Shown here piece by piece: positions 28,966 to 35,640 of a stretch of 64,000 nucleotides of DNA. The stretch's first letter is position 1. Each line of letters begins with the position of its first letter. Source of the DNA: Candidatus Kuenenia stuttgartensis (GTDB lineage Bacteria > Planctomycetota > Planctomycetia > Planctomycetales > Planctomycetaceae); contig CAMDPK010000013.1 in NCBI GenBank assembly GCA_945904015.1, positions 1 to 64,000 of the forward strand. The letters are read 5' to 3'. The position numbers were made by a program, and so were the translations under genes. The notes below the pieces were generated by a model. That model worked only from the letters and a program-made list of their open reading frames with translations, searched no databases and was not told where the DNA came from.

Positions 28966-31722
28966 TCACTTCGCCAACTCTTGCCGAAACTCATTCAATT
29001 TCTGCAAGGCCGCGATCGGCGTGAGTTGCTCGATGTCGAGCGACTTTAACTTCTCGATCACCGGATGATCCGGTTCGATGAACAATGAGCGTTGGCGGTC
29101 GCGCGATCTCGTTTTGCGTTCGGGGATTTTGACTTTTCCCGATTCGTCGACGTGGTCGGATTCGAGTTGGGCGAGGACGACTTGAGCACGCTCGACGACG
29201 TCGCGTGGCAGGCCGGCGATTTTGGCGACGTGGATGCCGTAGCTCTTGTCGGCCGGGCCTTCCACGATCTTGTGCAGGAACACGATGTCGTCACCGTGCT
29301 CGCGGATCGCGACGTTCCAGTTGCTGGTTTCGGGGAGCGTCTTGGTCAGTTCGGTCAGTTCGTGGTAGTGCGTGGCGAACAGCGTGCGGCAGCGGATTTG
29401 ATCGTGCAGGAATTCCGTGACGGCCCAAGCCAGGGAGATGCCATCGTAGGTGCTCGTGCCGCGGCCGATCTCGTCGAGGATCACGAGGCTGCGGTCGCTG
29501 GCGGAGTTCAGAATCCGCGCGGTCTCGGTCATCTCGACCATAAACGTGCTCTGGCCTTTGGACAGTTCGTCGCTTGCTCCGACGCGAGCGAAGATGCGAT
29601 CGGCGATCCCGATGCGAGCCTCGCTGGCCGGGATGAAGCTGCCCATCTGAGCCATGATCGTCAGCAGCGCGGCTTGGCGGATGTAGGTGCTCTTGCCGGC
29701 CATGTTCGGGCCGGTGATGAGCTGGACGCGACCGTGGCGAGGGGTGAGAGAGGAAACTGGATCATTGCTGGGCAAAGTGGCATGCGGTTCGGAGTGTGGA
29801 CCCTCTACTTCCGAATTCGGCGTTCCTCGCCCCTCGCCCCTCGCCCCTTGCCCCTTGCCTAGTCGCACGTCGTTTGGCACGAACGACCCAGACGGCATCA
29901 GCTTGTCGAGGACTGGATGCCGGCCTTCGCTGATGTCGAGGATCGGATCGGTCGTCAGTTCTGGGCGGCAATAGCCTTGGTTGACAGCGAGCGTGGCCAG
30001 CGCAGCGAGGACATCGACTTCGGAGAGCACATCGGCCGTTTGCTTGAGTCGCGCGGTGGCGGCGGCGACTCGTTCGCGGAGGGCGGCGAAGAGTTCTTGT
30101 TCCAGCGAGATCGCGCGTTCTTCGGCTCGCAGGACTTTGTCTTCGTACTCTTTCAGTTCCGGCGTGATGAATCGTTCTTGGTTTTTGAGCGTTTGCTTGC
30201 GGATGTACTCTGGCGGAATCTTCGCGGCCTGAGCGGCGGTGACTTCCAGGTAGTAGCCGAAGACTTTGTTGAACCCGACCTTCAAATTCGGCAGGCCGAG
30301 CCGTTCGGATTCCTTCGCCTGATAACCGGCGATCCACTCTTTGCCGCCGCGTGCGAGGTCTCGCAATTCGTCGAGCGTCCCGTTGAAGCCGGGGCGAATC
30401 ACGCCGCCGTCGGTGGTCAGCAGCGGCGGTTCATCGACGAGCGTGGCGTCGATGACGGCGCGGATTTCGGCATTCAGATCAAGGTCCGCTTCGAGCATTT
30501 TCAACAACTCGCACTGTCGCCCAGCGAGCTTGGCCTTGAGCTTCGGCAACAGTGCGAGCGAGCGGGTCAGGCTGCCGAGATCGCGCGGGCTGGCTCGGCC
30601 GGTGGCGACCTTCGCGGTCAGGCGTTGCAGGTCGTAGGTCTCGGCGAGGATCTCGCGCAGGTCGCGGCAGAACATCGTGTCGCGCGTCAATTCCTCGACG
30701 GCATCCAGTCGGCGATTGATCGCGGCGATGTTGGTCAGCGGATTCGACAGCCAATCGGCCAACAGCCGTGCTCCCATCGGCGAGACAGTTTCGTCGAGGA
30801 CCGACAGCAGGCTGTTGTCCCGTTTCCCTTCACGGATCGTGCGAGTCAGTTCGAGGCTCGCTCGCGTCGCTTCGTCGATGATGAGCGACGTGCCGCGGCG
30901 ATACGGTTCCAATCGGCTGATGTGAGCCAGCGAAGACTTCTGCATCTCCTGGACGTATTCGAGCAACGCTCCGGCGGCTGTCACGCCGGCGGAGTTCGCG
31001 TCGATATCCATGCCTTCGAGCGTCGACGTGCCGAAGTGTTTCAGCAGTGCTGATCGGCACGCCTCCTCCGCCCAACACCACGGAGCACGCGGCGTTGCCA
31101 GCAAACCGCTGCGAGCGAACAGCGGGCGCAGCCGTTCGTCGTTGGTGAGATGTTCGGGGTGCAAACACTCGCTTGGCCGGATGCGGGCGAGTTCGTCCGC
31201 GAGTTGAGCCGGTTCCAAATCGGTCGTGACGAATCGGCCGGTCGAAACTTCCAGCCAGGCGAGACCGACGGTTCCGGCTCGGCTCGGCCACACGCTGGCG
31301 AGGAAATTCGATTCGCGCGGGTCGAGCAGCGCTTCGTCGGTCAGCGTGCCAGGCGTGACGACTTGCGTGACCTCGCGCTTGATCATCCCCTTGGCGAGCT
31401 TCGGGTCTTCCATCTGCTCGCAGACGGCGACGCGGTGTCCGGCGACGATCAACTTTCGCAGATAGCCTTCGAGGGCGTGATACGGAAACCCCGCCATCGG
31501 GATCGGGTTGGGCGAGCCTTTGTCGCGACTGGTCAGCGTCAGGCCGAGCACTTTGGACGAGACGACCGCGTCCTCGAAGAACAGTTCGTAGAAGTCTCCC
31601 ATCCGAAACAGCAGGATCGAGCCGGGGTTCTGCCGTTTGACTTCGAGGTAACGCTCCATCGCCGGCGTGAGATTGTGCGGCGCGGGATTCGTGGCAGAAG
31701 TTTTCTCCGGCGGCTGGCTCAT
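28966..31722 (-). CDS. mutS: DNA mismatch repair protein MutS
   Basis: This 918-residue mismatch-recognition ATPase has its mismatch-binding Phe-x-Glu at 44-46 (GDFYELF), the core and clamp domains, Walker [10 protein letters not shown] at 671-679, Walker [17 protein letters not shown] and the helix-turn-helix dimerisation end. It recruits MutL to mispaired DNA. The ATG at 31722 has a GAGGA site; a TTG nine codons upstream is a poorer choice. An insertion of about 43 residues (622-664, low-complexity GARGEGRG at its start) sits just before Walker A and is encoded by a repeat element (29731-29859). mutL is not in the window. Confidence 0.97.
29731..29859. repeat. Repeat element inserted in frame in mutS
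   Basis: One end carries tandem GAGGGGC-type units (read on the minus strand as GGCGAGGGGCGAGG) and the other end carries the complement (CTCACCCCTCGCC). Translated it gives a Gly/Arg/Ser/Pro-rich insert of about 43 residues not expected in MutS at this position. Confidence 0.7.
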
Positions 31723-31831
31723 GTCGTCCTCAAGGGGAGAGTCTTGCAATGCGACGGCAGAATAACGGGCTTGCTCGCAAGATTCTCGTCCGCTGGGAGG
31801 CTAAGAACTGAGCCAGGCGGGTCAACACAGT

Positions 31832-31892: not shown

Positions 31893-32108
31893 TTACGCGA
31901 GCTTCGACAACACTTCGTCGTGAGTCGGAAAGCAACCGGTCTGATGCTTGCTGTAGATCAACTTCCCATCAGCGGTGACATCGAAGATGCCCCCGCCGCC
32001 GGGGATGAGCGTTGGCTCAACACTGAATCGCTGCTGGATCGCGGCCGCCAGACTGGTGGCCTGTGGTTTGTAGTTTCACTGCATGCAGTAAGTGATGCGA
32101 ATTTCCAT
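31893..32108 (-). CDS. SelW/Rdx-family selenoprotein (UGA = Sec11)
   Basis: A 72-codon frame starts at ATG 32108 and reads through one in-frame TGA (32076-32078) to TAA at 31893. The product, 71 residues, begins MEIRITYCMQ, then selenocysteine, then NYKPQATSLA, followed by PGGGGIFDVTADGKLIYSKH and QTGCFP. This is the Rdx (SelW/SelT/SelH-like) thioredoxin fold, with redox motif CxxU at residues 8-11 exactly at the TGA. Homology continues without a break across the TGA, and a hairpin fitting a bacterial SECIS lies 14 bases downstream. Rdx proteins are small thiol/selenol oxidoreductases. Decoding by SelB/SelC is inferred; those genes are not in the window. A conventional ORF call loses this gene. 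Confidence 0.85.
32043..32061 (-). promoter_or_regulatory. Candidate bacterial SECIS hairpin
   Basis: In the mRNA the sequence GGCCACCAGUCUGGCGGCC folds into a stem GGCC/GGCC, an A-C mismatch, CCA/UGG and a G-containing apical loop (GUC, or AGUCU if the last pair is open). It starts 14 bases after the UGA codon. A G in the first loop positions, and this distance, fit known bacterial SECIS elements such as that of E. coli fdhF. It is read by eye; no folding energy was computed. Confidence 0.65.
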
Positions 32109-32946: not shown

Positions 32947-32980
32947 ATTTTCGGGGGATTTACATCCCCCGCTCGCCGAG
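32947..32980. repeat. Palindromic repeat supplying the cytochrome gene's stop
   Basis: The core CGGGGGATTTACATCCCCCG is a palindrome flanked by CTCGCC. Read on the minus strand it encodes the last residues (LGERGM) and the stop codon of the multiheme cytochrome gene. A related CGGGGGGCTGACGCC..CCCCGCTCGCC element lies at about 19-47. Confidence 0.7.
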
Positions 32981-34873
32981 TGGGACGGCGCGGCGTTTGT
33001 GCCAGTCGGCTTGTTGTTGGTCGCCGGCTTTTGCGAATCGCTCGGCCAATGCCTGATGGATCCTCCACAATCGCGGGTTGATGCGAGTGGCGGTCAGCAG
33101 CGCCTGCTGCACGGCATCCGAGTGCGCCAATCGTTGTTCGCACTCGGCCAAGAGCAGCCAATCGACATGGTGACGACGCAAGCGGGTCAACTTCTGAAGT
33201 GCCGCAACCGCCTCCGGCCATCGGCCTGCCTGGAAGTGCGCATCTGCCAGTAGAAACAGGGCATTGGAACGATCCTGGCCATCCAGCCCCTTCAGTGACA
33301 GCGCGTTCTCGGCCAGTGATTGCCCACCGGGGATTTCCAATTCGAAGTGCAATCGAGCCAATGCGGCGTCCAGCGCGGGATCTTGCAGACCCGTCGAACG
33401 GACGTTTGTCATCAATTCCATCGCGCGCTGGCGGTAGTTGTCGGCCAGCTCTGGTTGAGACTCTCGATTCGCCGCCTCCAAATAGCCGAGTCCGAATGTT
33501 CGCTGCTGGTCGAGTTCACTGGGCCACGACTCCGTCAGAAACGGACGCAGCACGCCAGGACGATTGGCAGGGGGCGGACTGGTGTTCGACGACTTTTCGA
33601 CCGGCTTGTGAATTCCGATCCGGTGGTGCGTGAAGGCGAGATGCGGAATTTCGGTGTCCGAACTGGGCATGTGGCAGAGCACGCAATCGTTGTCCGGGCT
33701 GACTTTCCGCCGCTGCGATTCCTCCTCGCGGCAGTGTTCAGGACGATGGCAGCTCAGGCAGATGGTTTGATGAGGTTCCGATTTCCTTTCGCCTCCGACA
33801 TCGTGCGGGGTGTGACACGTCAGGCAAGTCAGCTTGTCCGACTTTTGATAGCAGCGGCTGAGATGCAACTGCTCGACATGCCCGACCACAGTCATCGGCT
33901 TATCGGGAACGTCGAGCCAAAAGTCCGTGCGAAAATCCTGCAACGGCAGACCGGGGCGGAAGTCGGCGATCTGTCGGCCTCGCACGGGAATGGTGGCGGT
34001 GCTGCGCAGATGGCATTGCTGACAGACCGCCTCGGCGAGTTCCCGCGACAAGTGGCTCGGATTGACGATTGTGTGGTCGATTTCTGGTTGTGAATCCGCA
34101 GCCACCTCTGTTCGCTCGCGGTGCTTTTCGACATGCAACGCGCCGGGTCCGTGACAGCGTTCACAGCCGATGGCCGCCTCGGTGATGTGCATGCGATGCA
34201 GGCTTTTGTCGACGGCTTTCGCGCGGCTGGCGTGGCACGTCAGACAACCCTCGCCGGTGGCTCGTTCAAAGCCTGAGTGTTCAGCCACGTCATAGCCCGG
34301 CGACATGTCCCAGGCTTTGCGCGACGTGTACCACGTCACGGGCGACTCGACCAAAAAGCCGTCTGCTTCGATTAAATACGTCAGCGAGTGATGCCCTGAA
34401 CCGACGACGAATTTCACGGGGAACTCGGCCAGCAGCACCTCGGCAGGATCCTCGACGAGCAGCAATTCACGATGCCATAACTGTCCGTCGTGTCGTCGGA
34501 CTTCGTAGCGACGCTGAGAAATCGGATGCTCGAACTCGCCGTCGGGCGGCTCGCGAGTCAGATCGACTTCCGCCATCGAGCGGCCCATGCCCGTGTGATG
34601 AAATGCCGAGTCATGGTCCGCGTGACACGTTCGACACGCTTCGCTGCCGACGTAGGTGACGTCCAGTTTCGTGTTGAGAAATGGACTCTCGGAAATCGTC
34701 GGCAGTGGAAATAGCTCCGACGCCGTCGGTTTGGGTTTGTTGGCCGGCGGCTGCGGCGGGCGGCGCGCCCAGACGGCCAACGACACAATGACCACGACCG
34801 TGAAAGAGCCGGTGAACCACCAACGCCATTCTTGAACCGCTTTCACCGAATCGCGACGCGAGGGTTCTTTCAT
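32960..34873 (-). CDS. Seven-heme cytochrome c with TPR-like C-terminus
   Basis: This 637-residue exported electron-transfer protein has an N-terminal membrane anchor (WFTGSFTVVVIVSLAVWA). Seven CxxCH heme-binding motifs follow: CRTCH, CLTCH, CERCH, CQQCH, CLTCH, CLSCH and CVLCH. The C-terminal 200 residues contain helical repeats such as NALFLLADAHFQAGRWPEAV, resembling TPRs. Multiheme-TPR fusions of this kind are common in planctomycetes, but substrates are unknown. The ATG at 34873 follows a partner gene by 23 bases. The final residues and stop lie in a palindromic repeat. Heme attachment and extracytoplasmic location are inferred from the motifs and anchor. Confidence 0.9.
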   Translation of the reverse strand: MKEPSRRDSVKAVQEWRWWFTGSFTVVVIVSLAVWARRPPQPPANKPKPTASELFPLPTISESPFLNTKLDVTYVGSEACRTCHADHDSAFHHTGMGRSMAEVDLTREPPDGEFEHPISQRRYEVRRHDGQLWHRELLLVEDPAEVLLAEFPVKFVVGSGHHSLTYLIEADGFLVESPVTWYTSRKAWDMSPGYDVAEHSGFERATGEGCLTCHASRAKAVDKSLHRMHITEAAIGCERCHGPGALHVEKHRERTEVAADSQPEIDHTIVNPSHLSRELAEAVCQQCHLRSTATIPVRGRQIADFRPGLPLQDFRTDFWLDVPDKPMTVVGHVEQLHLSRCYQKSDKLTCLTCHTPHDVGGERKSEPHQTICLSCHRPEHCREEESQRRKVSPDNDCVLCHMPSSDTEIPHLAFTHHRIGIHKPVEKSSNTSPPPANRPGVLRPFLTESWPSELDQQRTFGLGYLEAANRESQPELADNYRQRAMELMTNVRSTGLQDPALDAALARLHFELEIPGGQSLAENALSLKGLDGQDRSNALFLLADAHFQAGRWPEAVAALQKLTRLRRHHVDWLLLAECEQRLAHSDAVQQALLTATRINPRLWRIHQALAERFAKAGDQQQADWHKRRAVPLGERGM

Positions 34874-34896
34874 CGAGCGCTCTCCGCGATGCCTGC

Positions 34897-35640
34897 TCAG
34901 CGTGTCGCGATGGCTTGTGCCAGCGGACGCAGAATGGGATCGACCACCAATTCCTCGATCAGTTCGTCGCAGCGGCTGCGGAGCGTCAGCAGCGTTTGCT
35001 CGAACGAGGCGCCCGGTTCGAGGCTGCCGTACTGCCGCAGCGTGAAATAGACGCTGATGTTCTCTTCGGGGTATTCGCCGCGGCGGACGTGGTAGGCGTT
35101 GGTCCGCGTCTCGATCAACAGCCGAGCTTGCATCCGGCAGGACTCGTCGAGCGTCAGAGTGATCGCCGGCTCGTAGTTGAGGACGCGTGCGCCGGGGATG
35201 CGTACCAAGCCGTCGATGGCCGGGCAGCCGCCGAGCGCTTCGGCGACCAGTTCGTCGTGGTTGCCGCGATAGGCCATGTCGAAGCCCATCATGAAGTCGA
35301 GCGCTTCGCAGTCCAACGGGCTGACTGAGAGCATGTACGGCAGAAGTTCGAGCGTCAGTCGGTGCTGCTCGACGGCGGTGTCGATGTCCGGCGGATTCAG
35401 GAATCCGCTGCAAACTCGTTTCGGTTCGACCGAGACCCAGCGTTGATGGCCGAGGTCTTTGTCTTCTTCCAGCACGCAGTCGCCGGTCTCGCGGGTGTAG
35501 AAGTTCCGCATCATCGGGTACGACTTTTGGACTCGCTCGAAAAACCCCAGGATGGTTTCGCGAGCGGCCGGCAGAGGCATCTCGGTGCTGAGGTTCATAT
35601 TGCAGTAGAAGTCATCGACGTAGGAGTCGAAGGCCAACAT
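34897..35640 (-). CDS. Hypothetical protein upstream of multiheme cytochrome
   Basis: This 247-residue soluble protein starts MLAFDSYVDDFYCNMNLSTE. It has several charged motifs (MMRNFYTRETGDCVLEEDKD, VEPKRVCSGFLNPPDIDTAV, MMGFDMAYRGNHDELVAEAL) and no signal peptide or membrane helix. The start at 35640 is preferred because the upstream in-frame extension crosses a repeat region. It is the first gene of a two-gene operon with the multiheme cytochrome. I do not recognise the family; the consistent sequence texture supports a real protein, possibly a planctomycete-specific one. Confidence 0.8.
   Translation of the reverse strand: MLAFDSYVDDFYCNMNLSTEMPLPAARETILGFFERVQKSYPMMRNFYTRETGDCVLEEDKDLGHQRWVSVEPKRVCSGFLNPPDIDTAVEQHRLTLELLPYMLSVSPLDCEALDFMMGFDMAYRGNHDELVAEALGGCPAIDGLVRIPGARVLNYEPAITLTLDESCRMQARLLIETRTNAYHVRRGEYPEENISVYFTLRQYGSLEPGASFEQTLLTLRSRCDELIEELVVDPILRPLAQAIATR

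Follow-up and report, generated by a model that had tools for sequence, protein, structure and literature searches.

The window (the whole 64,000-nucleotide stretch of DNA that was analysed) carries on its minus strand, at positions 31893–32108, a SelW-like gene of the Rdx family with an in-frame UGA. Its product is almost certainly a thioredoxin-fold selenoprotein in which this UGA is read as selenocysteine (Sec), by way of SelB and a hairpin, and in which Cys8 and Sec11 would form a redox pair. The reading frame starts with an ATG at 32108 and proceeds to 31893 as MEIRITYCMQ-UGA-NYKPQATSLAAAIQQRFSVEPTLIPGGGGIFDVTADGKLIYSKHQTGCFPTHDEVLSKLA-TAA, giving 71 residues when the UGA is read as Sec. 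The UGA occupies 32076–32078 (minus strand) and corresponds to residue 11 of C8-M-Q-U11, while the codon of its CxxU partner Cys8 lies at 32085–32087 (minus strand). The product is recognised by Pfam Rdx (PF10262; 72.3 bits against a cut-off of 22.6, E = 3.8e-20) over residues 2–69, a match that spans the UGA, and by the NCBIfam models TIGR02174 CXXU_selWTH (56.6 bits, cut-off 34.2) and NF041051 SelTWH_Campy (88.1 bits, residues 3–70). The name of the latter points to Campylobacter, and the score lies right at its cut-off of 88. These profile scores, together with the predicted fold, bear out the SelW/Rdx assignment made by the sequence-only reading. Its statement that ordinary annotation misses the gene was too strong, because NCBI's own curated models recognise the protein at or above their cut-offs. 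Nor does the plain ORF list contain, in this frame, the two small ORFs that had been expected. Listed instead are a run-on ORF of 381 aa, which stops at the UGA, and one of 22 aa at the opposite end. The difficulty of annotating this gene was thus overstated.

An AlphaFold2 model of the product, built on an alignment of 48 homologues, reaches a pLDDT of 95.7 and places a strand at residues 3–8 and a helix at 14–28, with C8-M-Q-U11 at the end of the first strand. The predicted fold is the thioredoxin-like SelW fold. In a Foldseek search, the top 21 PDB matches are all chains of 2fa8, 2obk, 2oka, 2p0g, 2ojl and 3dex, followed by MIEN1 and mouse SelW. The model superimposes on 2fa8 with a TM score of 0.92 and an rmsd of 1.1 at 38% identity. 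This structure is that of Atu0228, a Cys-type Rdx protein that shares the fold but has a Cys (CTQC) where the selW product has Sec. Positions 8 (Cys) and 11 are invariant in the homologue alignment, in which the UGA is written as Cys. The sole unusual residue noticed is Cys59 in TGCFP (codon at 31932–31934, minus strand), which among the aligned rows occurs only in the selW of the window and in locus L055; in most aligned relatives this position is taken by Arg or another residue. Cys59 might act as a third redox residue together with Cys8 and Sec11, unlike in the Arg-bearing relatives, but we consider such a role unlikely.

The UGA recurs in homologues from many assemblies. A scan of genome contigs, which leans towards the Sec form as the Sec-form protein served as the query, returned 61 loci with TGA at codon 11 in 57 cases and TGC in one (L107), codon 11 not being reached in the remaining three. 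After pooling with the loci from the family search, 84 rows carry TGA at codon 11 (78 with distinct 60-base stretches), and Cys takes this position in L021–L023 and L107. This alignment to Sec- and Cys-containing homologues, which the sequence-only reading had proposed, together with the reading frame confirms that the UGA sits at the second position of CxxU. The named records with matches are mostly from planctomycetes, others being from Gammaproteobacteria, Deltaproteobacteria, Verrucomicrobiales, Chloroflexi and further groups. As the nearest relatives with a name are planctomycetes, the genome of the window most likely belongs to a planctomycete too. In the plasmid collection, a selW search gave 17 records, every one below 60% identity. 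Behind the UGA, 13 synonymous and 6 non-synonymous codon changes separate the gene from L026, its orthologue from the same genus, and the first, second and third codon positions differ 6, 1 and 15 times, respectively; this part of the gene is therefore under coding selection.

These data bear directly on the question whether the TGA is a sequencing error or a mutated Cys codon, or the gene dead. TGA is one base away from TGC and TGT, Cys forms do exist (the four loci named above), and the front of selW is missing in L061, a close relative. Nonetheless, the same TGA stands at codon 11 in 84 rows from many assemblies, coding selection continues behind it and the hairpin covaries (see below). An error, a mutated codon or a dead gene is accordingly extremely improbable, and the comparative data rule out sequencing error, pseudogene and ordinary stop codon alike; the error that the sequence-only reading had named as its possible undoing finds no support.

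In L061, a regional deletion has removed the start, the UGA and the first half of the hairpin from selW (at about 692–871), while both mutS (91% identical) and orf284, which lies upstream, are retained. A similarly broken selW match, with a TAG, is present in G122, a genome of the same genus as L061. The genome of the window itself encodes a second Rdx protein, of the Cys type (G000:C143:5885–6118, locus L020; 32.2 bits), which has CRTCG and no in-frame UGA.

The hairpin lies directly behind the UGA, at 32043–32061 on the minus strand, with the sequence GGCC-ACCAGUCUGG-C-GGCC. It comprises seven base pairs with one A.C mismatch (A22.C32) and a GUC loop (32053–32051), and has a minimum free energy (MFE) of -11.3 kcal/mol. 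The stem begins 14 bases behind the UGA, and the distance from the UGA to the apical loop is 22 nt. The available text of PMC13188914 limits a bSECIS element to a loop of 3–9 nt, a stem of 4–16 bp and a G in the first two loop positions, with a spacing of 16–37 nt and an MFE of at most -7.5. The window hairpin lies within these limits as given there. For the relatives, the limits tested (loop size, loop G, spacing and MFE, from the same text) hold in the MFE fold of 69 of the 78 rows, whereas the other nine fail one published limit.

Taken alone, the energy of the window hairpin is unremarkable (z = -0.32 against dinucleotide shuffles). With synonymous-codon shuffles, the mean z over the 78 rows is -0.69, and the window hairpin is matched by 20% of the shuffles. 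Such single-hairpin energies are weak evidence, and the significance of the putative bSECIS comes from comparison, that is, from covariation and from the loop codon. Covariation was assessed for an eight-pair stem in an alignment of 78 sequences (74 distinct rows) with 500 shuffles. A standard pair is present in 85.8% of the cells compared to 75.8% after shuffling, and cells changed on both sides number 56 compared to 14.7 ± 3.0. The covariation score of 0.348 (0.156 shuffled) is matched by none of the 500 shuffles, and no slid version of the stem comes close. Without guidance, RNAalifold selects the core of this stem. U is the last base of the loop codon in 76 of the 78 rows, with AGU in all 56 rows with Ser and GGU in all 18 rows with Gly; further down the same genes, AGT accounts for only 20 of 185 Ser codons and GGT for 83 of 446 Gly codons. 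Published limits, covariation and loop-codon bias thus all agree with the bSECIS candidate that had been proposed 14 bases behind the UGA.

The genome of the window is a draft of 7.43 Mb in 286 contigs, estimated at 91.7% completeness, and was searched for the Sec machinery. A tRNA-Sec scores 73 bits (cut-off 47) and is also called by ARAGORN, and SelB scores 348 bits. SelA is present as two fragments, one at an end of contig C254 and one at an end of C172. The overlapping part (ends of L014 and L015) is nearly identical by eye, and the pieces are probably one gene that strain variation split in the assembly. Of the four genes that the sequence-only reading had singled out for this check, selA, selB and selC are consequently present, but a profile search of the contigs of this draft genome found no selD above the cut-off. 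Two weak SelD matches, on C281 and C74, were rejected, being ThiL-like and HypE-type as judged by eye from neighbours and sequence.

The missing SelD opens the way to a reading in which the UGA is decoded as Cys or another residue, since no selenophosphate would be made without SelD. Yet SelD is present in all ten same-genus genomes of the family sample, and one and the same gene adjoins it in both same-genus relatives that were opened. A search run without a positive control did not find this adjoining gene in the draft genome of the window either. An assembly gap is likely because SelD occurs in 10/10 same-genus genomes and its adjoining gene is missing too, so that SelD would lie in sequence that the assembly lacks. 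SelA, SelB and tRNA-Sec are all present, and decoding as another residue is very unlikely. A changed genetic code, with UGA as a normal sense codon and nothing specific to selenium, would likewise leave the selW frame open, as the frame is open whenever TGA stands for a residue. Such a code would not account for a tRNA-Sec and SelB, for a conserved hairpin behind the UGA or for the same UGA in distant phyla, and it retains a negligible probability. Decoding of the UGA as Sec remains the preferred reading. As a side observation, SelD of the two same-genus relatives that were opened is an oxidoreductase-SelD fusion of about 750 residues (L114 4011–6269, minus strand; L115 2491–4713, plus strand). 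The fusion of L114 scores above the NCBIfam cut-offs for selD and Nterm_to_SelD, and below that for 'fusion_not_SelD'. Such oxidoreductase-SelD fusions have already been described, according to the text available from PMC2398784.

Across the family, genomes with the Sec form of selW also tend to have the Sec machinery. Rdx matches occur in 50 of 150 sampled genomes (counting that of the window), and matches with an in-frame TGA in 36. SelB is present in 33 of these 36 Sec-form genomes and in 27 of the 114 others (Fisher p 2e-13), SelD in 34 and 33 (p 8e-13) and tRNA-Sec in 27 and 31 (p 5e-7), respectively, p-values that overstate independence because the genomes are related. All 36 Sec-form genomes contain at least one of SelB, SelD and tRNA-Sec, compared to none of the three in 80 of the 114 others. 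The Sec-form genomes in which a match was not found (nine for tRNA-Sec, with stricter filters applied in the tRNA search of more than 40 genomes, three for SelB and two for SelD) are mostly drafts.

In the E. coli fdhF SECIS, the hairpin stands just behind the UGA, and a G and a U of the loop are contacted by SelB; this element belongs to another gene and has another stem than that of selW. We infer Sec insertion and redox activity for the window protein as follows. SelB carrying Sec-tRNA(Sec) would bind the hairpin just behind the UGA via the loop G and U, and this binding would cause the UGA to be read as selenocysteine. Cys8 and Sec11 would then act as a thiol/selenol pair, able to form a selenenylsulfide and to reduce a partner.

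The gene is a well-supported, ordinary addition to a long-known and widespread bacterial family. With other bacterial SelW-like selenoproteins (PF10262) it shares the family, the length, a CxxU motif with Sec at its second position and a bSECIS directly behind the UGA; it differs as a planctomycete member with Cys59 where Arg is usual. SelW-like CxxU proteins are listed as a predicted prokaryotic selenoprotein family in the portions available of PMC13188914 and PMC9312934, and, according to the text at hand, no other selenoproteins were as abundant in the Sargasso Sea (PMC1088965) or in ocean sampling data (PMC2398784). In epsilonproteobacteria, SelW genes have been missed by annotation (PMC4607533, in part). 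Selenoproteins were reported for two planctomycetes, and the full Sec machinery for planctomycetes, in the main-text extract of PMC4807772. A planctomycete SelW selenoprotein is named in none of the papers found by our literature search, as far as their available text goes, and table S9 of PMC4807772 may list SelW. The analysis confirms the recoded gene and documents SelW in its Sec form across one planctomycete family (36/150 genomes). The mapped Sec machinery and the covarying bSECIS alignment (78 distinct sequences) are useful for annotation, while the view of selenoprotein function is unchanged.

The next gene downstream of selW is mutS (28966–31749, minus strand), which is not part of the Sec mechanism. 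It is also found downstream of selW in close relatives (L019, L026, L048–L054 and L061), but not at the other selW loci of that search, for which roughly 1.5 to 3 kb of flanking sequence was available. A functional (operon) link between selW and mutS was therefore rejected, as the adjacency is confined to close relatives and looks like local synteny. An ORF of 817 aa (32963–35413, minus strand), conserved beside selW and mutS in close relatives, contains several CxxCH-like motifs and gives weak TPR matches; by eye, it appears to encode a multihaem cytochrome-like protein.

Finally, a SelW whose motif has UGA in both places (UxxU) was observed at L093 3001–3216, L094 313–528 and L118. Its host is genome G150, the Verrucomicrobiales MAG CPC300, in which SelB is present. 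Matches of any kind occur in 26 of 236 genomes from its class, and two-UGA matches in G150 alone. The SelW motif is given as CxxU only in two review tables, of PMC13188914 and PMC9312934, in the portions available. The loop of the UxxU hairpin follows the two UGAs at distances of 30 and 21 nt, which are both inside the 16–37 nt range quoted above from the available text, and its fold of -7.2 kcal/mol narrowly misses the limit of -7.5 from that same text. The two contigs are slightly different versions, agreeing at 305 of 312 bases upstream and, beginning with the gene itself, at 731 of 733, and both UGAs are present in both.
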